This document shows, in pieces, positions 4,908 through 17,189 of a DNA stretch of 64,000 nucleotides. The notes beneath the pieces were generated by a model that was not told the origin of the DNA, searched no databases, and saw nothing but the letters and a program-made list of their open reading frames with translations. Source of the stretch: Hydrogenovibrio marinus (GTDB lineage Bacteria; Pseudomonadota; Gammaproteobacteria; Thiomicrospirales; Thiomicrospiraceae). Both the position numbers and the translations under genes were made by a program. The stretch covers positions 1,984,001 to 2,048,000 of the forward strand of contig NZ_AP020335.1 in the NCBI RefSeq assembly GCF_013340845.1, written 5' to 3'. Every line of letters begins with the position of its first letter. The stretch's first letter is position 1.

Positions 4908-5003
4908 TTTTTTCCTCTCTTTAAATTTAAAGACTTGAACTGGTCTAATGGAAACGGACACTTCAATGAGAGACAATAGATGTTGTCGAATCTAGGAGTG
5001 GTT

Positions 5004-5294
5004 ATGAATCAGAAGCGAGTTTATAAAACTTACACCAAAGAATTTAAACAAGAAGCGGTCGCGCTTGTCACTGAACAAGGTTATAGCGTTGCTGAAGCGG
5101 CGCAAGCGCTAGGCGTTAATCCAAACTTGCTTTACAAGTGGAAAGACAAGCTTGAAGCGCAAACCAATGGTGCGGCCTTAAGCGATAATGAGCGTGAAGA
5201 ACTCAAAAAGCTGCGAGCTGAAAACAAGCGGCTTCGAATGGAAAAAGACATTTTAAAAAAGGCCTCAGCCTTCTTCGCCCGAGAAATGCACTAG
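5004..5294 (+). CDS. IS3-family transposase OrfA (copy 1)
   Basis: A 96-residue helix-turn-helix protein (KTYTKEFKQEAVALV..., with VAEAAQALGVNPNLLYKW as the recognition region) followed by a leucine-zipper-like ERE...LRAENKRLRMEKDILKKA segment used for multimerisation. The ATG at 5004 is chosen because an AGGAG lies 7 bp before it. The gene ends in an A6G slippery run (5255-5261) where ribosomes can shift -1 into orfB. Confidence 0.9.
   Translation: MNQKRVYKTYTKEFKQEAVALVTEQGYSVAEAAQALGVNPNLLYKWKDKLEAQTNGAALSDNEREELKKLRAENKRLRMEKDILKKASAFFAREMH
5255..5261 (+). other. Programmed -1 frameshift site A_AAA_AAG
   Basis: The heptamer AAAAAAG is positioned in the orfA frame as (TT)A AAA AAG, the canonical X XXY YYZ slippery arrangement. 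OrfB lies in the -1 frame relative to OrfA, and its frame is open from the heptamer onward, so slippage would yield the OrfAB transposase typical of the IS3 family. The same site recurs in copy 2 at 8604-8610. Confidence 0.75.
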
Positions 5295-5314
5295 GATTTG
5301 AGTTTATCCATACG

Positions 5315-6166
5315 TTGGCGCAAGAAGGCTACTCGGTTAAATTAAGCTGTAAGGTGATGAGTTTTAGCCGCTCCGGCTATTACGATTGGATCAAGCGTCC
5401 CAAGGCTATTATTACCGAAGAACAACTGCGACTGTATCGGCGAGCTAAAGCCCTTTTTATAGCCAGTCGAAACAGTCTCGGTTCACGAGAACTGATGAAG
5501 CGATTACGTAAAGAAGGCTTTAAGGTTGGGCGCCACAAAGTCATCAAGTTAATGGAAATCTTAAACCTAAAGGTTGAACAGCGTGTTGCATTCAAAGTCA
5601 CCACAAAACGGGACCCAAGCCACGCTGTGGCAGATAACCTTGTGAACATGGACTTTAACCCCACAGGCATGAATCAAGTGTGGGCCGGTGATATCACCTA
5701 TTTAAAAACCGCACAGGGTTGGCTATACCTGAGCGTGGTGATGGACTTGTACTCACGCCGGATTATCGGTTGGTCAATCAGCCCGCGCATGACCACCGAA
5801 CTCGTGCTTGAGTCGCTCAAGCAAGCCTACTGGCTTAGAAAGCCGCCCAAAGGGGTGATCTTCCATAGTGATCGTGGATCACAATACACCAGTGACGCAT
5901 TTAGAGCGCAGCTGAAACAATTCAAAATCCGAGCCTCAATGGGCGATGTTGGCGCGTGTTGGGATAATGCCGTGGTTGAAAGGTTCTTTGGCAGTTTAAA
6001 GCATGACTGGCTGCTCAAAGTACATCAACCTAACCATGAGCATATGATTGACGATGTGAAAGCGTATATGCGTTATTACAACTTAGAAAGGCTTCATACA
6101 AGCAATGGTGACATGAGTCCTATTGAATATGAAAATTATAAACGTGATGTGTCCGAAATTGCTTGA
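5315..6166 (+). CDS. IS3-family transposase OrfB, DDE integrase (copy 1)
   Basis: A 283-residue rve/DDE catalytic subunit. The N-terminal HTH_21-like region (SRSGYYDW..., about residues 18-90) is followed by the integrase core, with catalytic Asp in VWAGDITYLKT, the second Asp in VIFHSDRGSQYTS and Glu in NAVVERFFGSLK. It is probably made only as an OrfAB fusion by -1 frameshifting at 5255-5261. The TTG at 5315 is just the first start-like codon in the frame. The copy is intact. Confidence 0.9.
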   Translation: MAQEGYSVKLSCKVMSFSRSGYYDWIKRPKAIITEEQLRLYRRAKALFIASRNSLGSRELMKRLRKEGFKVGRHKVIKLMEILNLKVEQRVAFKVTTKRDPSHAVADNLVNMDFNPTGMNQVWAGDITYLKTAQGWLYLSVVMDLYSRRIIGWSISPRMTTELVLESLKQAYWLRKPPKGVIFHSDRGSQYTSDAFRAQLKQFKIRASMGDVGACWDNAVVERFFGSLKHDWLLKVHQPNHEHMIDDVKAYMRYYNLERLHTSNGDMSPIEYENYKRDVSEIA

Positions 6167-6174
6167 CCAGTACA

Positions 6175-6350
6175 AAGAGATGTTTCTGAACAGTGTTGTG
6201 GGTATTGAACGTTTAGCATAATTGAAACTCCTTTTATTTGTTTCAACTAACTAAACGATGATTTGTTTTCAAAATTAACAAAATAACTTAAAAAACAATT
6301 TTTATAATGCTAACTCGAAAGTGAATTGATTGATCTAGCCACCAGAAAAG
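6175..6350. other. Gap to the right of IS copy 1
   Basis: There is no gene here. A short plus-strand frame continues out of the element and ends at a stop at 6219-6221 (KEMFLNSVVGIERLA), which could be the C-terminal stub of a gene cut by the insertion. The rest is AT-rich with no clear signal. Confidence 0.3.
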
Positions 6351-6890
6351 CTATTTAAACACTTTAAACTCACTTTTATATTTATCAAAATACTCCCACT
6401 TCAAGCTTTTATCTGGGTACATTACACTCCAGTCATAGACGCGTCTTTTGTAGATTATTTGTATGGCACTTTTATACCTCCAGATTCCTTCTTCTAAATA
6501 GCGACCGGAGAATTCTGCTTTGTAAATATTTCTTTTTCGATCAAAGATAGAGGTGAATTCATCAAGAATTCCACCACTAGCTTCAAAGGATTTTTTTAGT
6601 GACCAATCCAACATCCCTTTGATTTTTTGATTATAAGCACCGACATCCTTGTCCTGCTCAAACTCTCTATACCTTAAAATATATACCGCTTTGTTCGGCA
6701 CATCTCCAGCAGCAAACATTCTCAAACCAGGCACATACTTTTGATAGCCTGAAAGATCATATTCTTTCGGCAAGCTAGGGAATGTTGCTTGCACCGAATT
6801 GTTCAATAAAGTAAATGTTGGATAATTTGAAGCCCATACACTGCATGAGAGAACGCTTAAGAATAGTATCCATAACAATTTAATTTTCAT
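6351..6890 (-). CDS. Hypothetical secreted (periplasmic) protein
   Basis: About 179 residues starting at the ATG at 6890. A Sec signal peptide is clear (basic MKIK, hydrophobic LLWILFLSVLSCSV, cleavage near WAS), giving a mature protein of about 160 residues that is rich in aromatic and basic residues. No lipobox and no family I can name. Its start overlaps the 3' end of the next upstream gene (6880-7122) by 11 bp, so the two are likely a translationally coupled pair. Confidence 0.55.
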   Translation of the reverse strand: MKIKLLWILFLSVLSCSVWASNYPTFTLLNNSVQATFPSLPKEYDLSGYQKYVPGLRMFAAGDVPNKAVYILRYREFEQDKDVGAYNQKIKGMLDWSLKKSFEASGGILDEFTSIFDRKRNIYKAEFSGRYLEEGIWRYKSAIQIIYKRRVYDWSVMYPDKSLKWEYFDKYKSEFKVFK

Positions 6891-7122
6891 CGTGACCACC
6901 TCTTGGCAAATTAGAGTGCGCCACTTTTCTCCAGCTGAATTTGGCTAGCCAGAAACCAACCAATAAGACGATGATCCAAATATTACTCAGTAATAAAAAC
7001 CCCGCTTCTGAAACGTCAGATTTTACTAAAACAACTTGAATCGCATTTTTTAGTACAGCACTTAAAGTGGCAAAAAACCAAAACACTATAATAGCTGTTA
7101 CAGCTGCAAATACTTTTCTCAT
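6880..7122 (-). CDS. Small two-helix membrane protein
   Basis: An 80-residue protein with two transmembrane segments (about residues 5-30 and 40-60) and a short basic C-terminal tail. No family is recognised. It overlaps the start of the secreted-protein gene downstream, so the pair may act together at the inner membrane and periplasm. Both lie between the two IS copies and may belong to the same acquired block. Confidence 0.5.
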   Translation of the reverse strand: MRKVFAAVTAIIVFWFFATLSAVLKNAIQVVLVKSDVSEAGFLLLSNIWIIVLLVGFWLAKFSWRKVAHSNLPRGGHDEN

Positions 7123-7176
7123 AACAATACCTTCTGCACTTTCCTTAAAGTAGCGAATTTAAAATCGATATAATCA

Positions 7177-7866
7177 TTACGCATGGTCATGCTTAATCAC
7201 TCTAAAAGTTAGATTAAACCTAGCCTCTTTAACTTTCTTACGAGGGGGAACAGAGTGCTCCCAGAAATGCTGTAAAGCGCCCCCCATAATGAGCAATGTT
7301 CCATGTTTTAGAGGAATGGACATCTTTTGAGATTTATCTTTTGTTCTGATTACAAAATCTCTAGATGCACCAAAGTTTAATGATGCTATGACAGGATTTT
7401 GTCCCAATTCTGACTCTGCATCTGTATGCCAACCAATATGATCAAAACCATCTCTATACCAGTTCATCAAAACACTATTAAATTTGACGTCTGTTATCGA
7501 CTCAATTCTTTCTTTGAGATAAAGCAATCCCTTATTCCAAACATTTGGTTCTAGATGGATTCCAGAGTAGGTATAACTTTTGTCTGTATCACCGTACCAG
7601 GCTGAATAACGTGGAAGATACATCTCTTTTCCATACATATTAATTTTGTCATGCTGCCAGTTAATGTTTTTGAACTTCACCTTTGACAGCGCATCTTTAT
7701 CTAAAGAATGCCAGTCCACCGATTGCCAATCATTTGAATCATTCTCTAAAAAATACTCGACACTTCGGTCACTGATATTTTTTTCTATAAAAGCTTCTGC
7801 ATAAAATAAATAACCATTGGGCACGTATATTTCAAACCCCTTTAAATCAGCTATAACCATCTTCAT
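7177..7866 (-). CDS. AlkB-family 2-oxoglutarate/Fe(II) dioxygenase
   Basis: About 229 residues. The C-terminal half is a clear AlkB/ALKBH2-3-type double-stranded beta-helix: NWYRDGFDHIGWHTDAE carries the iron ligands His and Asp of HxD, the distal ligand is the His of HFWEHSVPP, and ARFNLTFR is the RxNxTxR motif that binds 2-oxoglutarate. The family oxidatively removes alkyl groups from DNA or RNA bases. The first ~60 residues are less conserved, and a short coupled frame upstream (7847-7930) looks like the usual AlkB N terminus in another frame, so the 5' end may be frameshifted. Confidence 0.85.
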   Translation of the reverse strand: MKMVIADLKGFEIYVPNGYLFYAEAFIEKNISDRSVEYFLENDSNDWQSVDWHSLDKDALSKVKFKNINWQHDKINMYGKEMYLPRYSAWYGDTDKSYTYSGIHLEPNVWNKGLLYLKERIESITDVKFNSVLMNWYRDGFDHIGWHTDAESELGQNPVIASLNFGASRDFVIRTKDKSQKMSIPLKHGTLLIMGGALQHFWEHSVPPRKKVKEARFNLTFRVIKHDHA

Positions 7867-7930
7867 CTGGTAGTTCTATAGGGGGTTGATGCATGCCATC
7901 TATTTCTAAATCCTCAAACAAGTCTTTCAT
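7847..7930 (-). CDS. 27-residue frame overlapping the 5' end of the alkB-like gene
   Basis: A short frame starts with an ATG overlapping the upstream stop (TAATG at 7930) and reads MKDLFEDLEIDG...IELPDEDG before a TGA at 7847-7849. Its composition (DLF near the start, then an acidic xLPD segment) resembles the first residues of many bacterial AlkB homologues. It overlaps the annotated alkB frame by 20 bp in a different frame. It could be the true N terminus separated by a frameshift, or a leader that couples translation. Confidence 0.35.
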   Translation of the reverse strand: MKDLFEDLEIDGMHQPPIELPDEDGYS

Positions 7931-8284
7931 TACGCCACCTTCTTAAATACTCTATGAATTCGGCTCCAACGACCAATGTCTGAATCATCAACTGAAATAA
8001 TCCCATCACCACCAATTAGGTCTTGGAATTTTTCTAATTTTTCACCATTTAATGGACTTACGCACACAAAATAATTTACGCCATTGAGATTAGAGTTAAT
8101 CTTTTTAGCTAGACTTTTCAAATCAAAATGTCTGTCGCCCATATCAAAATGTTTGAGAATAGATGCACCTTTACAGACTCTTCTTTTACAGATAAATCGC
8201 TTAGTAACAAACTATCTAAGTCTTTATTAATTGAATTAATTTCAGAGCAGTCTTTAAGGAATTCTTTTGCACGCTTCAAGGCCT
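7930..8284 (-). pseudogene. Broken gene: 5' end cut by IS copy 2 and probably frameshifted
   Basis: Two frames join head to tail. The first (8284 to 8118) enters from the IS and reads KALKRAKEFLKDCSEIN... until a stop at 8118. The second (8142-7930, 70 residues) begins MGDRHFDLKSLAKKIN and ends GRWSRIHRVFKKVA. The second has no ribosome binding site and overlaps the first by 25 bp, so a single ancestral gene with a frameshift near 8130-8160 is the simplest reading. No family recognised. Downstream frames follow with overlapping stops and starts, suggesting the original operon continued into alkB. Confidence 0.4.
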
Positions 8285-8352
8285 TGAACTGGTCTAATGG
8301 AAACGGACACTTCAATGAGAGACAATAGATGTTGTCGAATCTAGGAGTGGTT

Positions 8353-8643
8353 ATGAATCAGAAGCGAGTTTATAAAACTTACACCAAAGAATTTAAACAA
8401 GAAGCGGTCGCGCTTGTCACTGAACAAGGTTATAGCGTTGCTGAAGCGGCGCAAGCGCTAGGCGTTAATCCAAACTTGCTTTACAAGTGGAAAGACAAGC
8501 TTGAAGCGCAAACCAATGGTGCGGCCTTAAGCGATAATGAGCGTGAAGAACTCAAAAAGCTGCGAGCTGAAAACAAGCGGCTTCGAATGGAAAAAGACAT
8601 TTTAAAAAAGGCCTCAGCCTTCTTCGCCCGAGAAATGCACTAG
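8353..8643 (+). CDS. IS3-family transposase OrfA (copy 2)
   Basis: Identical in sequence to the OrfA of copy 1: HTH domain plus a C-terminal leucine-zipper-like helix, AGGAG before the ATG at 8353, and the A6G slippery heptamer at 8604-8610 near its end. Identity between copies indicates recent transposition. Confidence 0.9.
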   Translation: MNQKRVYKTYTKEFKQEAVALVTEQGYSVAEAAQALGVNPNLLYKWKDKLEAQTNGAALSDNEREELKKLRAENKRLRMEKDILKKASAFFAREMH

Positions 8644-8663
8644 GATTTGAGTTTATCCATACG

Positions 8664-9515
8664 TTGGCGCAAGAAGGCTACTCGGTTAAATTAAGCTGTA
8701 AGGTGATGAGTTTTAGCCGCTCCGGCTATTACGATTGGATCAAGCGTCCCAAGGCTATTATTACCGAAGAACAACTGCGACTGTATCGGCGAGCTAAAGC
8801 CCTTTTTATAGCCAGTCGAAACAGTCTCGGTTCACGAGAACTGATGAAGCGATTACGTAAAGAAGGCTTTAAGGTTGGGCGCCACAAAGTCATCAAGTTA
8901 ATGGAAATCTTAAACCTAAAGGTTGAACAGCGTGTTGCATTCAAAGTCACCACAAAACGGGACCCAAGCCACGCTGTGGCAGATAACCTTGTGAACATGG
9001 ACTTTAACCCCACAGGCATGAATCAAGTGTGGGCCGGTGATATCACCTATTTAAAAACCGCACAGGGTTGGCTATACCTGAGCGTGGTGATGGACTTGTA
9101 CTCACGCCGGATTATCGGTTGGTCAATCAGCCCGCGCATGACCACCGAACTCGTGCTTGAGTCGCTCAAGCAAGCCTACTGGCTTAGAAAGCCGCCCAAA
9201 GGGGTGATCTTCCATAGTGATCGTGGATCACAATACACCAGTGACGCATTTAGAGCGCAGCTGAAACAATTCAAAATCCGAGCCTCAATGGGCGATGTTG
9301 GCGCGTGTTGGGATAATGCCGTGGTTGAAAGGTTCTTTGGCAGTTTAAAGCATGACTGGCTGCTCAAAGTACATCAACCTAACCATGAGCATATGATTGA
9401 CGATGTGAAAGCGTATATGCGTTATTACAACTTAGAAAGGCTTCATACAAGCAATGGTGACATGAGTCCTATTGAATATGAAAATTATAAACGTGATGTG
9501 TCCGAAATTGCTTGA
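8664..9515 (+). CDS. IS3-family transposase OrfB (copy 2)
   Basis: Identical to the OrfB of copy 1, with the full DDE integrase core (Asp of GDITY, Asp of HSDRGSQY, Glu of VVERFFG). It is in the -1 frame of OrfA and is expected to be expressed as an OrfAB fusion. Intact. Confidence 0.9.
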   Translation: MAQEGYSVKLSCKVMSFSRSGYYDWIKRPKAIITEEQLRLYRRAKALFIASRNSLGSRELMKRLRKEGFKVGRHKVIKLMEILNLKVEQRVAFKVTTKRDPSHAVADNLVNMDFNPTGMNQVWAGDITYLKTAQGWLYLSVVMDLYSRRIIGWSISPRMTTELVLESLKQAYWLRKPPKGVIFHSDRGSQYTSDAFRAQLKQFKIRASMGDVGACWDNAVVERFFGSLKHDWLLKVHQPNHEHMIDDVKAYMRYYNLERLHTSNGDMSPIEYENYKRDVSEIA

Positions 9516-10395
9516 CCAGTACACACCTTAGGCAAGTATGATTAGCTGAATGTCCGCATATAACACAAACACCTTCATCATAGATATATGATGAAGAGGA
9601 CCAGCATGAAGGACAATCACAATAAGGAATTTCACCTCCATCAGTAACAGCTAGGTATGTCTCAGGATAATAATATTCGGAAATAGCGGCAGGTATTATC
9701 TCTTCCGGAGTATATCGTGCATGACAAGAACGGCACATATATTCTGTTTCTATCGAATGGGTAGAATTATCAATCGGTTCGATTAAATCTGAACCGCAAT
9801 CTTGGCATTTGAATTCTTTTAGTGCCAATAACAAACTCGGACTCTCATAAGTCAAAGTCTCCATTACTTCATTACAAGCATTTTTTTCTGCCTCATACAC
9901 CTCTTTCGTTTCAATTAAAACAGCCCATGTTTCTACGCCTAGCAACTCCTGAGGGTCGCTATCTAAATAATTCCTTACAAAATCATTTATGACAATAAAT
10001 GTATCTGATATGAGTTTACGGATAGAATCAATTTGATTTTGGGTATAGTAGTGTTCAATTTCATTTCTATATTGTTGAATATCACTAACTCTCTTCCAAT
10101 CAACACCTATTTCTAATGACGTCAGTCGTTCCTGAATTTTATGGAGGTCTACAGTTTTTGAACCCTTACCTACCCACTTTATCCCTTCTGGAGTTTTAAT
10201 AGGGCTAATTCTCTCCTTGATTAACGCCTCATCTGTATCATCTTCACTGAGTTGAGCTAATTTATGTTTGAATAAAAGGAGAATGCCGGAATATAAATTT
10301 CTTGCACATGAAAGAGTTATTCTGGAAGGGTTATCAGACTGAAAATCTTCTAGTCCTAGTTTTATAGAAGAAATTGCGTTATCCAATATACTCAT
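9469..10395 (-). CDS. HEPN-like N-terminal domain plus zinc ribbons; tail altered by IS
   Basis: About 308 residues. The N-terminal 160 residues are helical and contain YRNEIEHYY (near residue 109), the RX4H signature of HEPN domains, many of which are RNases. The C-terminal half has CxxC pairs: CQDCGSD with CRSCHAR, then CDCPSC with CVICGHS, i.e. two zinc ribbons. The last 17 or so residues are encoded by IS copy 2, which inserted at about 9524. If the CCT duplication is collapsed, the original frame would have ended after LRP, so only the tail is changed. ATG 10395 is preceded by an in-frame GTG at 10398. It is the last gene of the minus-strand operon. Nucleic-acid-targeting toxin or defence effector is an inference. 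Confidence 0.6.
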   Translation of the reverse strand: MSILDNAISSIKLGLEDFQSDNPSRITLSCARNLYSGILLLFKHKLAQLSEDDTDEALIKERISPIKTPEGIKWVGKGSKTVDLHKIQERLTSLEIGVDWKRVSDIQQYRNEIEHYYTQNQIDSIRKLISDTFIVINDFVRNYLDSDPQELLGVETWAVLIETKEVYEAEKNACNEVMETLTYESPSLLLALKEFKCQDCGSDLIEPIDNSTHSIETEYMCRSCHARYTPEEIIPAAISEYYYPETYLAVTDGGEIPYCDCPSCWSSSSYIYDEGVCVICGHSANHTCLRCVLVKQFRTHHVYNFHIQ

Positions 10396-10468
10396 CACTA
10401 ATAGCCTTTTGTCCCATAGAAATTGCTCCGAACGGCATAACCCCAGTTTCTTGTATTTTAAGTTTAAA

Positions 10469-11485
10469 TCACTTTTCTAGTTCTTTGGTTGCATACATAT
10501 TGGCAATCTTAACCATTTCCGGCTCGCCACCTGGTAAAAGGTCCGCTTTCTTCAAAATGTAAGCCGGGAACTTGGTCCTCAAATATATTTGTTTAAACCA
10601 CGCCCTAAATTCAGGAAGCGCTTGATCTGGGTAAGCATTAGGAGTCTGAGGATTACTTGTTGCCTGAGGGTAATAATCTGGGTAATTGTGTTCATAAGGC
10701 ATCCTTTCCCCATATTTCGACGCTAGATTGTTCTCTTTCCAATATTTGCCCCAAGCAAGTCCAACGCTTATATCAGGAACAGTCTTATCATTGACTGTCA
10801 AATTAGCAGTTATTAAATCAACTATAAGACCAGTAATTTCATTAAAAACTGTAAAATATCCTAATGGAGAACTATCCTTGAGAAGAGACACTCTATCATG
10901 ATGATACTTCCATTTATCTGATGGCGTATATTCAAGAGCTTCATAAATGAACTTACGCAGTCCAAAAGCCGCAAAACGTCTGTAATTTTCTATGGCGACC
11001 GGATTTGGCGTCCTTGATTCAAAAGCATAAAACTCCAAAATAGCCATACAAACAATATCCGGATATGCGTAACTTACTGATCCATCTTTTACTGTCTCGA
11101 TGTATAGTTGAGGTTCATTGAATCCATTTTTTAACAAATAATCTTTTATAAAAGACATTCTTCCTTTTGTTAAAACCGAATCATCAAAGTGATGCTCCCA
11201 CTCTTGAGTTATGTCATATAGAACTCTTCTGGAAGTACCTGATATCTGAGACAAACCATTTTGAGTAAGATAAGGAATTCCATTTTCTAAAACCCCCATC
11301 TCAATTCCACCTACATCTTTTTCGACTTCAATGCCAAGATCCAAGGGGTGTTGGTGAGAAAGAGGAGGTGCCGGCTCGGAAGAATTAATAGACATTAACT
11401 CATTGTTTTTAATAAGCTTAACAGATGCCGGATTACTCGAATTTATTGTAGAATAATTGCTTAAATCAGACTTATCTTTAGACAT
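10469..11485 (-). CDS. Unrecognised 338-residue protein of a putative defence operon
   Basis: About 338 residues starting at the ATG at 11485 (GAGG about 10 bp upstream). The N-terminal 70 residues are Ser/Asn/Pro-rich and probably disordered. The middle (about 75-250) has well-formed helices, including YLTQNGLSQISGTSRRVLYDI, which looks like a helix-turn-helix or KilA-N/P63C-like DNA-binding region, and FGLRKFIYEAL. The C terminus is rich in Pro, Tyr and Trp. I cannot assign a family with confidence. The gene lies between the HD hydrolase (103 bp upstream) and the HEPN protein (about 70 bp downstream) on the same strand, suggesting a joint function. Confidence 0.45.
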   Translation of the reverse strand: MSKDKSDLSNYSTINSSNPASVKLIKNNELMSINSSEPAPPLSHQHPLDLGIEVEKDVGGIEMGVLENGIPYLTQNGLSQISGTSRRVLYDITQEWEHHFDDSVLTKGRMSFIKDYLLKNGFNEPQLYIETVKDGSVSYAYPDIVCMAILEFYAFESRTPNPVAIENYRRFAAFGLRKFIYEALEYTPSDKWKYHHDRVSLLKDSSPLGYFTVFNEITGLIVDLITANLTVNDKTVPDISVGLAWGKYWKENNLASKYGERMPYEHNYPDYYPQATSNPQTPNAYPDQALPEFRAWFKQIYLRTKFPAYILKKADLLPGGEPEMVKIANMYATKELEK

Positions 11486-11588
11486 TACCACCAGCCCTCT
11501 AAGTTTACTTTTATACTAAGACTCAATGGTTTGACCAACCATCTCTAGCAAGGCAAAAAGTCAGACTAGCATTGTAAGAAAAAAATGT

Positions 11589-13019
11589 CTATGTAGATTC
11601 TGGCAATTCAAACAGAATTTTAGCTAAATTTTCTCGGTGTGCTTTATATCCATCAAATGGGAGCATAAAAACCCGAATATCTGAGAAATATTGTTTGGAC
11701 AATAAATTTAATAAACTACTAGATTCAAACACTAACGGAAACACTGGATGTGTTTGTGAGTGCTGATTATAAATATGGACTAATTCTTCAGTAGTTTCTA
11801 AATCAGACGGAGAATTGGCACTACACAACTCACTGGGATTAACCTTCGACAACTGATGTTTTTTATCCCATACATGAAAATACTCAGGATCGAGTCCATT
11901 GTCTTGAATGTACTTATCAGTTAAATTTCTAACTTCTTGTAGACATATACCGTGATATGAATCATCTGCCCTAATATATTTTTGGCTATAGAAAACCTGT
12001 CTTGCTTGATGCCGGTATAAGATTGCATCCAAGTGCATATACTTGGAATCTTTTGGGGTTAACGAAAGGGTGTTATGAGCGCTTTTAATAGCCGATGTAT
12101 ACTTGTAATCATCCAGCCCTTTAATATTGTTATCTTCAATCATCCTTAATAACTCAGATTTTTCAATATTTATCCCATTATCGTCAATCTTAATACAAAT
12201 TTTGATCGCCTCTTTTAGAGACCATTCTAAAGAAATTAAATTCTTATTAAATACTACCTGTTGATAGTCGTAATACCTTGCTAAAAGCATATGTTCTATT
12301 GATTTTTTTGCTTTTATATCAAAACATAGCTTATTTCTCTGAATGCGGGAACTACTGATTAAGTAATCAATATCAACATTACCGAATGGTAGCCCACTAA
12401 AATGGGAAGTCCTTTTTAAATAATCTAAACGATCACAATCTAATTCTGAACTAATAACAGGCTTTAAATTTATTTCAGTTTTCGATACATAATTGTCTGA
12501 AGCGAAAACAGATGCAACATCATTTGGTGAGAACCCTGCTTCATTTAAAACACTCTTCAATTCGCTGTCATTATTTATTATTAATGAACCAAATGCTTCA
12601 TGGTCATCTACAATCTCAATATCTCGCCCTTGGATTAGCTTTTGATTTTGTAAATACTCTTCAAAGGCGTGTTCTGTAGCGTGAGAGAAAGGAAAGTGGC
12701 CGATATCGTGAAGCAACGCCGCTAGCCTATATTTTTGCTGCTCATTAACATCAAGTTTGTATGGATGATCAGTTCCAGGACTAAGCTCTACGTGATCAAT
12801 ACAGGCGTTTTGTTCTATTGCGTTTAAGAATTTCCCTGCATTACGAAGTGCACCAATTGAATGAGAGAACCTAGAATAGTTGGCTCCTGGAAATACTAAG
12901 TGAGCCAACCCGAGCTGTTTTACATTTTGAAGTCTTTGAAAAGCAGAAGTTGAGATTATTTTATACTCAATTTCTGATATTTGTACTGAGCCATACACAG
13001 GATCAAATATGGTTCTCAT
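11589..13019 (-). CDS. HD-domain phosphohydrolase (SAMHD1/dGTPase-like)
   Basis: About 476 residues. The N-terminal half has the HD-superfamily metal ligands: H in RFSHSIGA, HD in ALLHDIGHFPFSHATEH, and D in SSELDCDRLDYLKRTS. The layout matches the COG1078 group that includes SAMHD1-like and YwfO-like dNTP/nucleotide triphosphohydrolases. It starts 3 bp after the stop of the YwgA/Panacea-like gene and is surely cotranscribed with it. Nucleotide depletion is a known antiphage strategy of HD dNTPases, but the substrate here cannot be read from sequence. Confidence 0.75.
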   Translation of the reverse strand: MRTIFDPVYGSVQISEIEYKIISTSAFQRLQNVKQLGLAHLVFPGANYSRFSHSIGALRNAGKFLNAIEQNACIDHVELSPGTDHPYKLDVNEQQKYRLAALLHDIGHFPFSHATEHAFEEYLQNQKLIQGRDIEIVDDHEAFGSLIINNDSELKSVLNEAGFSPNDVASVFASDNYVSKTEINLKPVISSELDCDRLDYLKRTSHFSGLPFGNVDIDYLISSSRIQRNKLCFDIKAKKSIEHMLLARYYDYQQVVFNKNLISLEWSLKEAIKICIKIDDNGINIEKSELLRMIEDNNIKGLDDYKYTSAIKSAHNTLSLTPKDSKYMHLDAILYRHQARQVFYSQKYIRADDSYHGICLQEVRNLTDKYIQDNGLDPEYFHVWDKKHQLSKVNPSELCSANSPSDLETTEELVHIYNQHSQTHPVFPLVFESSSLLNLLSKQYFSDIRVFMLPFDGYKAHRENLAKILFELPEST

Positions 13020-13022
13020 GCT

Positions 13023-13502
13023 TTAGATAAGACCTTGTTCCTGTAGCACTTCCGCAGCTTTGTCTCTAATTTCTTCTGAAATATGATCTTTAACTTCTGC
13101 CACAACAGCTTTTGCTTGCCCAATAGTTTTATTTGATTTGGTAACTAGAAAAGCTATAGAAGCTAAAGCTTCAAGCCAATCACCTTTATGTTCTTCCTTT
13201 TGATATTCTAGCAACTCTCTCACATGAGCAATTCTTTCTTTCACATTTTCTGCAAAGTCAACATTCTCGTAATCACCAAGATCAGTAAATCGATAATAAT
13301 CAGATGCTAAATCAGGACTATATGGCCCTCTCACATACCAGTTGTAACGATACCCAAGATCCACTCCTAATAATTGTGCTAGAAACACTGCTTTCTGAAG
13401 AATTAACCTTTTATCTACGCCAGACATACCTTCTTCTGAAACTGTCGGATTAATTCCTAGCTCTTCATACAGTTGTTTTAGAATTACCACACTATCATTC
13501 AT
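13023..13502 (-). CDS. YwgA / Panacea-like protein
   Basis: A 159-residue protein. The LILQKAVFLAQLLGVDLGYR block followed by WYVRGPYSPDLASDYYR (about residues 33-72) is the signature shared by YwgA-type and Panacea (SocA/DUF4065-like) proteins. Panacea domains act as antitoxins or proteolysis adapters for diverse toxins, and YwgA-like genes are often neighbours of an HD hydrolase (ywfO-ywgA). It is the first gene of the minus-strand operon, upstream of the HD gene with a 3-bp gap, so it may regulate or neutralise that protein. Role inferred. Confidence 0.6.
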   Translation of the reverse strand: MNDSVVILKQLYEELGINPTVSEEGMSGVDKRLILQKAVFLAQLLGVDLGYRYNWYVRGPYSPDLASDYYRFTDLGDYENVDFAENVKERIAHVRELLEYQKEEHKGDWLEALASIAFLVTKSNKTIGQAKAVVAEVKDHISEEIRDKAAEVLQEQGLI

Positions 13503-13630
13503 TGGTTCGGCTCCATCTAATTAGTTGCGCATTCTAATAGAATTCACACCATATATCTATACTCTATTTTTTATCAAAGATAATCTCAGCTTATCAAGCA
13601 ATATCTCTTTTACAAGGAAATATTTTCTAC

Positions 13631-13664
13631 TTTTTTCTGATTATGATATCATTTACAGAAAAAA
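13631..13664. promoter_or_regulatory. Inverted repeat between divergent operons
   Basis: A 9-bp inverted repeat (TTTTTTCTG at 13631-13639, complement CAGAAAAAA at 13656-13664) lies 14 bp before the HTH gene start and 130 bp before the divergent YwgA-like gene. It is the most likely binding site of the HTH protein encoded at 13678. The pattern is A/T-rich, so chance is possible. Confidence 0.4.
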
Positions 13665-13677
13665 ATAGAATTTATAA

Positions 13678-14025
13678 ATGATTAATATATTCGTTGCTGA
13701 CTTAAACAAGTTCCTAAAAGAAAGTGGGAAAAGCAGCTCATTTTTAGCTAAGGCGGTTGGTGTTTCTCCTTCCAGAATTACTGATTGGAAAAACGGTTCT
13801 ATACAAAGATACTCTGAAAAGCCAAAACTTGCTCATGAAATAATACGAAACTACCAAAAACAAAATGCTTCATTACCAAAAGAAATTGAAGATGTGATTA
13901 GGGACTTATTGCACTCAACAAACAACCAAGAACACTTAATCAACTTACTAAACTCTCTAAAACCATTTGTAAATCCTAAAGAAACATCACAAAATACAAA
14001 CATAGACACAGGTAAAGACACATGA
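13678..14025 (+). CDS. HTH (XRE/Cro-type) regulator of the three-Cys-motif operon
   Basis: A 115-residue protein whose first 55 residues are a helix-turn-helix domain (FLKESGKSSSFLAKAVGVSPSRITDWKNG), followed by a low-complexity polar C-terminal segment. Its stop overlaps the start of the next gene (ATGA, 14022-14025), so it is part of the operon and probably its repressor. An inverted repeat lies immediately upstream. Family-level assignment is good; target is inferred. Confidence 0.7.
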   Translation: MINIFVADLNKFLKESGKSSSFLAKAVGVSPSRITDWKNGSIQRYSEKPKLAHEIIRNYQKQNASLPKEIEDVIRDLLHSTNNQEHLINLLNSLKPFVNPKETSQNTNIDTGKDT

Positions 14026-14783
14026 GTTCAAAAATTGAATGGACAGAAGAAACGTGGAATCCCATTACTGGTTGCGATAAGGTTTCTGATGGCTGTAAAC
14101 ATTGCTATGCGGAAGCTATGGCGAGACGATTAAAGGCGATGAACACTCCTGGTTATGAAAATGGCTTTGAAATCAGCATCCTTGAAAATCGCTTAGAACA
14201 ACCTCTAAAAAAGAAAAAGCCCACAAAATATTTCGTGAATTCAATGAGTGATCTGTTTCACGAAAAGGTTCCTTTTGAATTTATTGATAAAGTATTTGAT
14301 GTAATTAACAAAACTCCTCATCATATATATCAAATTCTGACCAAGCGTTCTGCACGAATGGCTAAGTATTTCGAAACCCGAATCCCTCCAGAAAACGCAT
14401 GGATTGGAGTAACGGTCGAAAACAAAAAACAGGGACTTAGACGTATTGATCACTTAAGAACTATCAATGCAACCATTCGCTTTTTATCTGTAGAGCCTCT
14501 CCTCGAAGACCTTGGTAAGATAAACTTGAAAAATATAGACTGGGTGATTGTTGGGGGCGAATCTGGTCCAAAAGCTCGACCAATGAAACCCGAATGGGCT
14601 GAAAACATTCAAGAACAATGTGAAATTGCTGATGTAAGTTTTTTCTTCAAACAGTGGGGAGGCTGGGGAGCTGACGGAAAGAAACGCTCCAAAAAAGACA
14701 ATGGACGTTTGCTCAAAGGTCGTACATGGGATGACATGCCACAATACGATTCATTAAAAGGAATTTCAGTTACAACACAATAA
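14022..14783 (+). CDS. Three-Cys-motif protein, DUF5131 (phage Gp37/Gp68 family)
   Basis: A 253-residue protein. It begins IEWTEETWNPITGC and carries CX6CX2C (CDKVSDGCKHC, residues 18-28), the three-Cys motif of DUF5131. The family is radical-SAM-like: iron-sulfur ligands at the N terminus, then TIM-barrel strands such as FVNSMSDLFHE, YQILTKRSARM, WIGVTVEN, FLSVEPLLEDL and WVIVGGESGPKARP (about 67-190). It ends with a FFFKQWGGW block. Proteins of this family occur in phages and mobile islands and are genetically coupled to TcmP, as here, where tcmP follows after 3 bp. The reaction is not known to me. Confidence 0.85.
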   Translation: MSSKIEWTEETWNPITGCDKVSDGCKHCYAEAMARRLKAMNTPGYENGFEISILENRLEQPLKKKKPTKYFVNSMSDLFHEKVPFEFIDKVFDVINKTPHHIYQILTKRSARMAKYFETRIPPENAWIGVTVENKKQGLRRIDHLRTINATIRFLSVEPLLEDLGKINLKNIDWVIVGGESGPKARPMKPEWAENIQEQCEIADVSFFFKQWGGWGADGKKRSKKDNGRLLKGRTWDDMPQYDSLKGISVTTQ

Positions 14784-14786
14784 AAA

Positions 14787-16061
14787 ATGGCTAAAACAGA
14801 ATACGATTGGGATATTCATAACCCACCAATAATAAAACCTCATAGCATTTCTAAGCATGAAACTTTGAAAGAGTACCTTATCAGATTTGCCAAAGCTCTT
14901 TCTCCTAGCCCTGCTCAAGAAAGGTTAAACATTGATATCATCGATGGCTTTAGTGGAGGAGGTCTATATCAAACGGAGTCCGGAGAGCTTCATTTAGGGT
15001 CGCCCTTACTCATTCTTGAAACATTAAAAGAGGCGGAAGCAATACTTAATTGTGAAAGAGAAAAAGATTTCAAAATTGTAGGTAAACGAATATTTATCGA
15101 CCCCTCTCCTGAAGCAAATCAACAGCTACGGTATTACCTTGATCAATTCGGATACGACTATAAAACACATAATTCAAACATCCAAATAATCCAAAATGAT
15201 TTTAAATCAGTACTCCCCTCAATACTGCAAAAATATACTGCAAACAAACAGCAACGAAACAAGGTTATATTTTTGTTAGACCAGTATGGATATAAACACG
15301 CAACAATCACTGAAATTCAACAAATTTTCTCAACATTAGGCTCAAGAGCAGAGATCATCCTTACTTTTGCTACAGATAAACTAATTAATTTTTTAAGTAT
15401 GGATGAAAGAATCCAGAAGGTTATAAAATCCGTACGACTTGAACATGTGCTTACACAAGAAGTTATAGAAGAATTCAGGGATGCTTCAGCTACTTACAGA
15501 AAAATTCATAGAATCGCCATTCAATACCTGATTGCTCGAGATATCATTATGCAATCAGGAGCTCGTTGGAGTAACGTCTTATTTATTAGATCACGAGAAA
15601 GCGCAAATGGTGCTTATTTATACCTTCATCTTTCAAATAATTTTAGAGCTCGAGATGAAATGAATAGCGTTATTTGGGAAACAAAGAATGGCTTTGTGCA
15701 AGATGCAGGTTCAGGCACAAAAATGTTTGAGTACGACCCTATCAACGATGTTCAATCTGGTTTTGAATTTGAGTTTAACTGCAAAGATGAAGAGGCTGTT
15801 CACCAGACATTGATCGAAGACCTCTTAAAGTATCTTAGAAACAATACAACACTGCAAAAAACTTTTTCTTCACTACTAGAGGAACAGATTGGAACTTCTA
15901 CGCCTGCTGGAAGAAATCATTTTGCAAAAGCTCTTGCAGAGCTTAAAGATTCGCAAGAAATTAATATACTAACGCCGAAAGGAAGAAGTAGAAAAGAATC
16001 GACTAACATTGATAACGAAGACATTATCAAACTCTCCAAACAAACTCGCTTTTATTTTTAA
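14787..16061 (+). CDS. tcmP: Three-Cys-motif partner protein TcmP
   Basis: About 424 residues. Family features are the N-terminal KHETLKEYLIRFAKAL, IDGFSGGGLY (residues 52-61) with GSPLLILE, then IFIDPSPEAN and FLLDQYGYKHATI. The DGFSGGG and LLDQYG pair looks like nucleotide- or SAM-binding motifs I and IV of a Rossmann-type methyltransferase, but that is my inference. The N-terminal two thirds are globular; the C-terminal third is helical and ends with a Lys/Arg-rich segment. It starts 3 bp after the three-Cys gene and ends the operon. No terminator is obvious. Confidence 0.85.
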   Translation: MAKTEYDWDIHNPPIIKPHSISKHETLKEYLIRFAKALSPSPAQERLNIDIIDGFSGGGLYQTESGELHLGSPLLILETLKEAEAILNCEREKDFKIVGKRIFIDPSPEANQQLRYYLDQFGYDYKTHNSNIQIIQNDFKSVLPSILQKYTANKQQRNKVIFLLDQYGYKHATITEIQQIFSTLGSRAEIILTFATDKLINFLSMDERIQKVIKSVRLEHVLTQEVIEEFRDASATYRKIHRIAIQYLIARDIIMQSGARWSNVLFIRSRESANGAYLYLHLSNNFRARDEMNSVIWETKNGFVQDAGSGTKMFEYDPINDVQSGFEFEFNCKDEEAVHQTLIEDLLKYLRNNTTLQKTFSSLLEEQIGTSTPAGRNHFAKALAELKDSQEINILTPKGRSRKESTNIDNEDIIKLSKQTRFYF

Positions 16062-16548
16062 GCCCTACAAAATCAATACAATTGAAGCCCCACTAAAACC
16101 TTATAGATATCTATCACCACTCTGCACTCTTCTAACTTACCCACACCTTTTCCAAAGCGTACAAATACACCTTCAACATTCACCCGTGCCTCTTATATAG
16201 TGCAGCAAAAACATCTTCTGAATTGCCACTAAAGTTCTAGAAACTTCTCAGCTAAGTTCAGTTTTGAATACGAACAAGCTAGTTTTTGACCAAATCTATT
16301 TAGCTAGAGAATCTGTGAATGCAATGGAGATTGCACTTCATTTAAATCCATTTCTTATATTATTGACTAATTTTTCAGGTAGCAAATAGGTAGCAAACTG
16401 ACTATACAAAGTGATACATTTAGATACATCAGCATGCAAAAAAAAAACAAACACGCCCAGTAGAGACTAAAGTTAAGACGTTGTTTTTATAGTTTTTTTT
16501 GAATATACAAGAATATTCTCGTATATTCTTGTATAAGATCAGTTTTAA
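16062..16548. other. Non-coding end of the island
   Basis: No supported gene. The stretch contains tandem GGTAGCAAA copies (16378-16386 and 16389-16397), a doubled GATACAT (about 16412-16428), a homopolymeric A run (16438-16446) and the inverted repeat at 16505-16534. A plus-strand open frame without a start (16222-16389) may be a gene remnant. The repeats resemble arm-type sites beside tRNA attachment sites. Confidence 0.5.
16505..16534. repeat. 12-bp inverted repeat beside the att site
   Basis: ATACAAGAATAT (16505-16516) and its exact complement ATATTCTTGTAT (16523-16534) are separated by 6 bp. It lies 14 bp left of the tRNA-derived core and is not followed by a T run, so it is more likely a protein-binding site (recombinase, excisionase) than a terminator. 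Confidence 0.55.
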
Positions 16549-16593
16549 ATGGGGTGGCGGGGGTCGTAGGTTCAAATCCTACTGTCCCGACCA
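16549..16593 (+). repeat. 3' fragment of tRNA-Pro(GGG): att site of the island
   Basis: These 45 bp read as the 3' part of a proline tRNA: anticodon loop ATGGGGT (anticodon GGG), anticodon stem 3' strand GGCGG, variable loop, a T-arm GTAGG-TTCAAAT-CCTAC, acceptor strand and CCA. The 5' half is missing: the bases before it (AGTTTTAA) do not pair with GGCGG. Integration into tRNA 3' ends leaves exactly such a partial copy at the distal end, so this marks the junction between island (left) and core genome (right). The intact tRNA-Pro should lie at the other, unseen end. Confidence 0.8.
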
Positions 16594-16619
16594 ATTGAAT
16601 CTTTTCTAAAGCTTATCAA

Positions 16620-17189
16620 TTACGCATTGCCATCGGCAAAATGCGCATCCAAGCCTTCACAGATTAAATGATTTAAAAACGTATGCGCTTCTTGAATACG
16701 CGCAGTTTGTTGGGAATGGATAGGAAAACAATAATCAGCGGTTTCCGATAGCGGTGAAACCTTGCTTCCAATCAAAGCAATCGTCAAACAGCCCTTTTCT
16801 TGAGCCACTTCCATCGCCTTTAGGACATTCGCACTGGTACCGGAGGTACTCATACCAATTACAACATCACCCGGTTGAGCAAGTGCTTCAACTTGACGGG
16901 AGAAGATCGTTTCAAATTCAAAGTCATTGGAGTGTGCGGTCAATAAAGAGCTATCGGTTGTCAAAGCGATGGAGGCCAACGGCTGACGATTGATGACATA
17001 ACGTACCATCAGTTCCGCTGCCATGTGTTGTGCTTCTGCCGCACTACCACCATTACCCATCCATAGTACTTTGGCGCCCGATTCCAACGCCGCAATCATC
17101 TTTTGTACCACTTCCTGCAATAGGTCACCGGACTTCAGTACTGATTCAATCGCTTTTTGATGCTCTTGATAGGCGGCTTCGATATTCAT
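16620..17189 (-). CDS. gmhA: Sedoheptulose-7-phosphate isomerase
   Basis: A 189-residue SIS-domain protein: LWMGNGGSAAEAQHMAAEL holds the phosphate-binding loop and active-site residues, VIGMSTSGTSANVLKA the second sugar-phosphate loop, and QEAHTFLNHLICE the C-terminal helix. It isomerises sedoheptulose 7-phosphate to D-glycero-D-manno-heptose 7-phosphate, the first step of LPS heptose synthesis. ATG 17189 follows an AAGGA site and matches the family length; a longer frame upstream runs into hldE. It follows hldE by 19 bp on the same strand, so both steps are cotranscribed. Confidence 0.95.
   Translation of the reverse strand: MNIEAAYQEHQKAIESVLKSGDLLQEVVQKMIAALESGAKVLWMGNGGSAAEAQHMAAELMVRYVINRQPLASIALTTDSSLLTAHSNDFEFETIFSRQVEALAQPGDVVIGMSTSGTSANVLKAMEVAQEKGCLTIALIGSKVSPLSETADYCFPIHSQQTARIQEAHTFLNHLICEGLDAHFADGNA

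Follow-up and report, generated by a model that had tools for sequence, protein, structure and literature searches.

A DUF5131–TcmP gene pair with a putative repressor in a Hydrogenovibrio marinus tRNA-Pro island: a candidate two-enzyme module acting on nucleic acid bases

A 64,000-nt stretch of the Hydrogenovibrio marinus genome (Thiomicrospiraceae, Gammaproteobacteria; contig NZ_AP020335.1, positions 1,984,001 to 2,048,000), here called the window, carries a three-gene operon at the right end of an island. It encodes a small helix-turn-helix (HTH) protein of XRE/Cro type, a DUF5131 protein (phage Gp37/Gp68, or three-Cys-motif, family), and TcmP, for which the NCBI name is three-Cys-motif partner protein. 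The favored reading, to which we give about an even chance, is that this is a mobile, repressor-controlled module of two enzymes working on nucleic acid bases, most likely in defense against phages or other mobile elements; a first-pass annotation had proposed a regulated modification or defense pair, and this is kept as the best interpretation. The HTH gene (13678–14025, + strand, 115 aa) shares a 4-base ATGA overlap (14022–14025) with the DUF5131 gene (14022–14783, +, 253 aa), which is separated by 3 bases (14784–14786) from the TcmP gene (14787–16061, +, 424 aa), so the layout originally described is borne out by the open reading frames (ORFs) and the sequence. The motifs named at that stage can also be placed: CX6CX2C is C18/C25/C28 of DUF5131, and DGFSGGG and LLDQYG are residues 53–59 and 163–168 of TcmP. 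G+C content is 34–37% across 12–16 kb of the window, against 42–48% across most of 16–54 kb.

Both proteins belong to curated families: DUF5131 scores 375.7 bits against PF07505 (E 1.2e-112; Pfam cut-off 28.9) and TcmP 153.2 bits against TIGR04474 (E 1.2e-44; NCBIfam cut-off 53). Within this known TIGR04474/PF07505 pair, the window TcmP is the longer version, which includes a GMT-like winged HTH; some other loci add a shorter TcmP-like gene. In PADLOC-DB 2.0.0, DUF5131 matches PDC-M30B (9.9e-118) and TcmP matches PDC-M30A (1e-19), and both genes also match the A and B models of PDC-M41. The A and B components of PDC-M30 thus stand side by side with a 3-bp gap, as judged by model matches rather than by PADLOC's system thresholds. 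PDC-M30 and PDC-M41 likewise consist of DUF5131 and TcmP, which are here adjacent and in an island with defense-type genes, but the HTH gene is without a PADLOC match. The suggestion that this was an undescribed system therefore falls, given the existing NCBI partner name and PADLOC listing; the companion statement that no joint function had been established agrees with a search of the PubMed Central (PMC) literature, subscription papers being outside its scope, in which no published function for DUF5131 or TcmP was found and the name “DUF5131” occurs in no paper. PDC systems are candidates only, recognized by the genomic surroundings in which they are embedded (PMC10855318). The present analysis contributes a structural assignment, a regulator position and the dyad that goes with it, the location in a tRNA-Pro island, and the contexts in phages.

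In a sample of 369 genomes of the class, TcmP exceeds its cut-off in 20 and DUF5131 in 31, and in each of the 20 TcmP genomes a DUF5131 match lies under 500 bp away on that contig (by eye, 405 at most). The overlap of the two genome sets alone has a hypergeometric P of 1.6e-25. That unrelated genes are adjacent by chance, for which no support was found, is refuted by this co-occurrence and by the 20/20 adjacency, and its probability is practically nil. Among the 11 DUF5131 genomes without an over-cut-off TcmP, one (G267) has a TcmP fragment alongside, five have fragments or partial matches, and five have apparently full-length lone genes. Co-occurrence of the two families, asserted in the first-pass annotation, is strong in this sample, and their presence on phages and islands is likewise confirmed, with plasmids, prophages, and islands all represented.

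A second set of loci was collected as relatives of this TcmP, comprising the nearest 80 kept of 292 in genome contigs and 17 more from viral contigs; since these 97 were picked in that way, the class sample is the fairer test of pairing. DUF5131 is in the locus of 79 of the 80 (the exception being L088, where the start of TcmP is 94 bases from the end of the contig) and of 16 of the 17. Gene calls dropped one locus (L131), leaving 78 pairs, of which 74 are on the same strand and 73 have a gap of at most 200 bp; for the viral contigs, TcmP has no open call in L166 and L176 and is split in L175. The distance matrices of 91 pairs correlate with r 0.41, where the highest of 1000 permutations reached 0.19. 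A scan of viral sequences with a single TcmP sequence confirmed no relative, and it was an alignment scan that found the 17. When the window proteins served as tblastn queries, DUF5131 had hits in 404 plasmid and 159 phage records, and TcmP in 59 plasmid records and 1 phage record; these counts are unfit for judging pairing because TcmP diverges too fast (that of Gordonia phage Easley was missed). Hundreds of plasmid and phage records thus carry DUF5131, a family without a published function in the literature searched. No TcmP is annotated near DUF5131 in plasmid locus L019, and no DUF5131–TcmP gene fusion was found in 11,565 ORFs.

DUF5131 is the better conserved partner (median identity 0.50 vs 0.34), and a second TcmP-like gene is present in 33 of 112 loci (35 by script, from which L018, with a sole TcmP, and L175, with a split gene, were removed). 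Four of these genes were scanned (L091, L129, L141, L158), each giving a PDC-M41A match of 1.6e-5 or better. The combination of a single DUF5131 and a variable TcmP, tightly paired on plasmids, viral contigs, and islands, might bring to mind a toxin–antitoxin-like arrangement, in which TcmP would be a toxic nucleic acid methyltransferase and DUF5131 would remove or block its mark, in the service of plasmid or island maintenance or of abortive infection. This is quite unlikely: in a Pseudomonas aeruginosa plasmid (L011) TcmP is open although DUF5131 is broken into two ORFs that lie in different frames, which would be hard to explain if TcmP were lethal, and it is DUF5131 that is more conserved and that also occurs alone. 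A separate family of ~270–360 aa is encoded near the pair in six loci (L092, L096, L101, L127, L131, L158), at distance 1 in five of them, and a similar-looking ORF (L177:5037-6041) adjoins the pair in Sinorhizobium meliloti; Pfam has no match for the L158 member or for the L177 ORF, and PADLOC none for the latter.

The predicted folds give the pair a possible chemistry. For TcmP, an AlphaFold2 model built with 80 sequences has a predicted local distance difference test score (pLDDT) of 88.6 and a predicted template modeling score (pTM) of 0.89, and its top Foldseek matches among solved structures are Escherichia coli RlmJ (E 1e-7), the 23S rRNA A2030 N6-methyltransferase, and Trm1 (5e-7), followed by many methyltransferases. 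By hhalign the TcmP and RlmJ profiles align over 108 columns (probability 89, E 2e-6), pairing K23 with K18, H24 with H19, D53 with D40, GSP with GSP, and D165 with D164, that is, the KH helix, the GSP loop, and the catalytic Asp. In RlmJ, the available text of PMC3814359 states, K18A and D164A are inactivating and H19 and S100 contact the cofactor; Y4 and H6, its other essential residues, fall outside the stretch aligned with TcmP. Across 80 aligned TcmP proteins D165, Q166, and the GGG of motif I are invariant, and K23 is present in 79. It is fairly well supported, from model and alignment, that TcmP has an RlmJ/Trm1-like Rossmann-fold methyltransferase domain retaining the catalytic motif X Lys and motif IV Asp of RlmJ, much as the first-pass annotation had guessed in proposing a nucleotide- or S-adenosylmethionine (SAM)-binding fold.

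TcmP is not itself an RlmJ, as it has no PF04378 match and has DQYG where RlmJ has DPPY; it also differs in sitting on an island and in its extra C-terminal winged HTH (residues 323–399; GMT-wHTH match, E 3.5e-11). RlmJ is weakly related at the sequence level: in 16 class-sample genomes every TIGR04474 match is below the cut-off, and 12 of 13 such loci inspected carry an RlmJ-like ORF (one confirmed by PF04378), the thirteenth being the TcmP fragment of G267. A search of the PDB by sequence found no TcmP relatives. More distant TcmP proteins have a DPFG- or DPKG-like motif IV. Trm1 has DPFG at this place, so the target base may be guanine or adenine. As RlmJ and Trm1 are RNA methyltransferases, the operon could conceivably modify ribosomal RNA or tRNA bases and so alter translation or drug sensitivity; we regard this as very unlikely, since the winged HTH and the island and phage contexts are atypical of a housekeeping enzyme, and since TcmP exceeds its cut-off in only one of 62 genomes of the family, that of the window itself.

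In DUF5131, all three Cys of CX6CX2C are invariant in the 63 aligned proteins and C200, which might serve as a hydrogen donor as a cysteine of spore photoproduct lyase does, is nearly so (61 of 63); the invariance of the three Cys, like that of the DQ of TcmP, across relatives indicates that these motifs are not chance occurrences. The AlphaFold2 model (63 sequences; pLDDT 93.2, pTM 0.89) has a partial TIM barrel like that of the radical SAM superfamily. Spore photoproduct lyase entries fill Foldseek ranks 1–6 (best E 5.3e-4), and lipoyl synthase and viperin match less well, so that the predicted fold agrees with the radical SAM-type barrel originally suggested. It is fairly well supported by this model that DUF5131 resembles spore photoproduct lyase in its scaffold, through fold and not sequence, with a Cys-rich loop that could hold a cluster. 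A search of the PDB by sequence gave five weak matches (best E 0.11), judged to be chance, and a profile search found none. DUF5131 is also distinct from Radical SAM mobile pair A, scoring 104.9 bits against TIGR04471, for which the cut-off is 355. Neither a lack of mutual enrichment nor folds unlike those of cofactor-binding enzymes, which the first-pass annotation had named as telling against its proposal, was found when co-occurrence and fold were examined.

In the favored reading, the C-terminal winged HTH of TcmP would bind the target, and its RlmJ/Trm1-type active site would methylate a base, at adenine N6 or at the exocyclic amine of guanine. DUF5131 would hold one [4Fe-4S] cluster and generate a 5′-deoxyadenosyl radical from SAM, and its radical chemistry on the same nucleic acid would further alter, or reverse, the marked base. 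The small HTH protein would repress the operon through a dyad upstream. The fold assignments turn a listed defense candidate into a testable chemical hypothesis, that of an altered base, and name the residues on which it should depend: C18, C25, and C28 of DUF5131, and K23 and D165 of TcmP. If both enzymes do act on the same base, this would be immunity by radical base chemistry.

The HTH protein falls just under the Pfam cut-offs for HTH_3 (22 vs 23 bits) and HTH_26 (21.4 vs 22), and is probably the autoregulator of the operon. Its probable operator is a 34-nt dyad (13631–13664, no strand assigned) in which 14 of 17 pairs are symmetric and whose right end is 13 nt from the HTH start codon. 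At least 14 pairs were reached in 3 of 2000 dinucleotide shuffles of 13503–13677, and three places in the window reach 14 or more. Another strong dyad (16503–16536, also 14 of 17 pairs) lies just inside the right end of the island, adjoining a partial tRNA-Pro copy described below.

Other loci have other regulators in the same position. In 37 of the 87 loci with both genes on the + strand, a gene encoding 80 aa or more lies within 150 nt upstream on that strand; 9 of these genes match Peptidase_S24 and 1 HTH_3. By a model built from the S24 cluster, 12 of the 194 genes at distance 1 are S24-like, compared with 3 of 1128 at greater distances (Fisher P 2e-8), a statistic that speaks to position and not to family, as the genes tested also went into the model. 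Of the 12, two lie downstream (L103, L114) and one is on the opposite strand (L107), while six share 4 nt with DUF5131, like the window HTH gene. An S24-type protein (L016) scores below the cut-offs of the LexA and UmuD models. The window HTH thus appears to be one of several regulator types in a shared slot, S24 (LexA/UmuD-type) proteins being another in some relatives, with most loci having no regulator found there.

These S24 genes bear on the principal rival, which is that the pair is a damage-induced module of mobile elements for repair or tolerance of DNA lesions, with DUF5131 reversing a lesion by radical chemistry in the manner of spore photoproduct lyase and TcmP marking or processing the site. 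Besides the S24 peptidase genes enriched at distance 1, an error-prone polymerase gene and imuA lie near one pair, a 2-oxoglutarate (2OG)-Fe(II) oxygenase that we take to be of AlkB type is encoded in the same island, lone DUF5131 genes lie near replication genes in two phages, and the nearest solved fold of DUF5131 is itself a DNA photoproduct repair enzyme. S24 and XRE repressors, however, control prophage and defense operons too; outside the Cys loop, DUF5131 does not resemble spore photoproduct lyase in sequence; and neighbors of the pair match defense models. On this evidence the repair module is unlikely, though to be taken seriously.

The company of the pair is where a role in defense is chiefly suggested, beginning in the window with the BstA and PDC-S64 genes beside it. 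Among the matches listed for 132 neighbors in 20 loci, PADLOC models for Gabija, DarG, PD-T4-4, AriA, and restriction are each hit by one or two proteins, as are those for an oligonucleotide cyclase and a phospholipase of the type of the cyclic oligonucleotide-based antiphage signaling system (CBASS); a CBASS cyclase is annotated near locus L010. On S. meliloti pSymA, DUF5131 and TcmP are followed on the opposite strand by a shorter TcmP and an 845-aa helicase matching PDC-S28. In the available part of a published table of S. meliloti up-regulated genes, hna (SMa2245) and the TcmP gene SMa2243 come in succession (PMC12445080), and from this order the helicase is probably Hna. In Gordonia phages Easley and Bosnia, the pair is flanked on one side by an HTH/peptidase pair and on the other by the immunity repressor. 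Seven phages, including these, were hand-picked among the 159 phage records with DUF5131, and five of the seven have DUF5131 alone.

A number of observations weigh against the reading of the operon as a two-enzyme defense module. The argument from neighbors to a defense role is guilt by association. Proteins of control regions also match defense models (methylase, DruM, DrmMII, MADS, and Dsr1 among the matches listed), including three for Dsr1 with E down to 1.7e-181; and although 117 PADLOC families were matched among neighbors and 68 among controls (132 proteins each), this is a qualitative comparison with a weak control, the latter being author-chosen random regions of the same genomes (18 of 20, some of them short) and the case set including the window's own BstA and PDC-S64 proteins. 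Of 100 P. aeruginosa strains, 32 had a predicted PDC-M30 and 68.8% of those were resistant, which speaks for defense but is a correlation in strains with many systems (PMC10855318, available text), and no experiment on any family member was found in the PMC literature. The S24 regulators would suit a response to DNA damage as well as one to phage. DUF5131 can seemingly act alone, being without TcmP in five of seven phages and 10 of 31 class genomes (about half of them fragments).

The structural matches are subject to similar reservations. The TM-scores are modest, at 0.33 (query) and 0.49 (target) for RlmJ with the TcmP model and 0.51 and 0.39 for the best spore photoproduct lyase match to DUF5131 (root-mean-square deviation 8.4). 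With DQYG in place of DPPY, adenine methylation is not assured. No Radical_SAM Pfam family matches DUF5131 at E 0.01, and the Cys spacing is CX6CX2C rather than the canonical CX3CX2C of the superfamily, which spore photoproduct lyase has; membership is less likely for these reasons, but variant Cys spacings are found among radical SAM proteins, and it may still belong there. Membership in the spore photoproduct lyase family itself (PF20903) was considered and rejected: DUF5131 has no Pfam match to it, and hhalign against a profile of genome-derived sequences, checked against the PDB, gave probabilities of 2.0 and 1.8 over 15 columns at the Cys loop. With a profile match confined to this loop and a different spacing, DUF5131 is not filed there.

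A bolder version of the two-enzyme defense proposal can be imagined, although we think it doubtful. The pair could represent a new mechanistic class of anti-phage immunity without a nuclease of its own, in which a winged-HTH base methyltransferase and a repair-like radical SAM protein jointly make or convert an unusual base in the nucleic acid of an invader, with a repressor that in part of the relatives would be a damage sensor of LexA/UmuD type. Phages with a lone DUF5131 would then undo or pre-empt the mark.

The operon's own mobility is indicated by its setting. The alignment with a sister genome ends at window position 16636, in the last bases of a gene we recognized as gmhA. Just inside this, 16549–16600 (+) repeats the 3′ half of tRNA-Pro(GGG) (52 bp, 98% identity), with the other copy at genome position 1982444–1982495, in an intact tRNA-Pro(GGG) gene 1.5 kb to the left of the window. 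The repeat copies and the alignment break place the operon at the right end of an island in tRNA-Pro(GGG), of ~18 kb judging by these positions. No tyrosine or serine integrase was recognized among the listed ORFs, part of which were scanned, and Rfam has no match in 1–24000.

The rest of the island includes HigB-like and PemK-like toxin genes and two insertion sequence elements (4980–6166 and 8329–9515, both +) with identical ORF translations and an integrase core. These bracket 6167–8328 and with it the 2OG-Fe(II) oxygenase gene (7177–7866, −; PF13532, E 1e-31), perhaps encoding another base-modifying or base-repairing enzyme. A gene for a BstA-type protein (10469–11491, −; PADLOC E 9.5e-118) adjoins a PDC-S64 candidate (9469–10398, −; PADLOC 2.6e-48). 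Divergent from the operon, a 159-aa protein gene with weak DarG-model matches (13023–13502, −) precedes one for an HD-domain protein with weak dGTPase matches (11589–13019, −), and together these look like a further two-gene system. The tRNA-Pro(GGG) site itself looks like an island hot spot: in a sister genome (L229) other genes are enclosed between this tRNA gene and a partial copy of it, and in L230, where ARAGORN calls no tRNA, two partial tRNA-Pro copies lie 12.3 kb apart.

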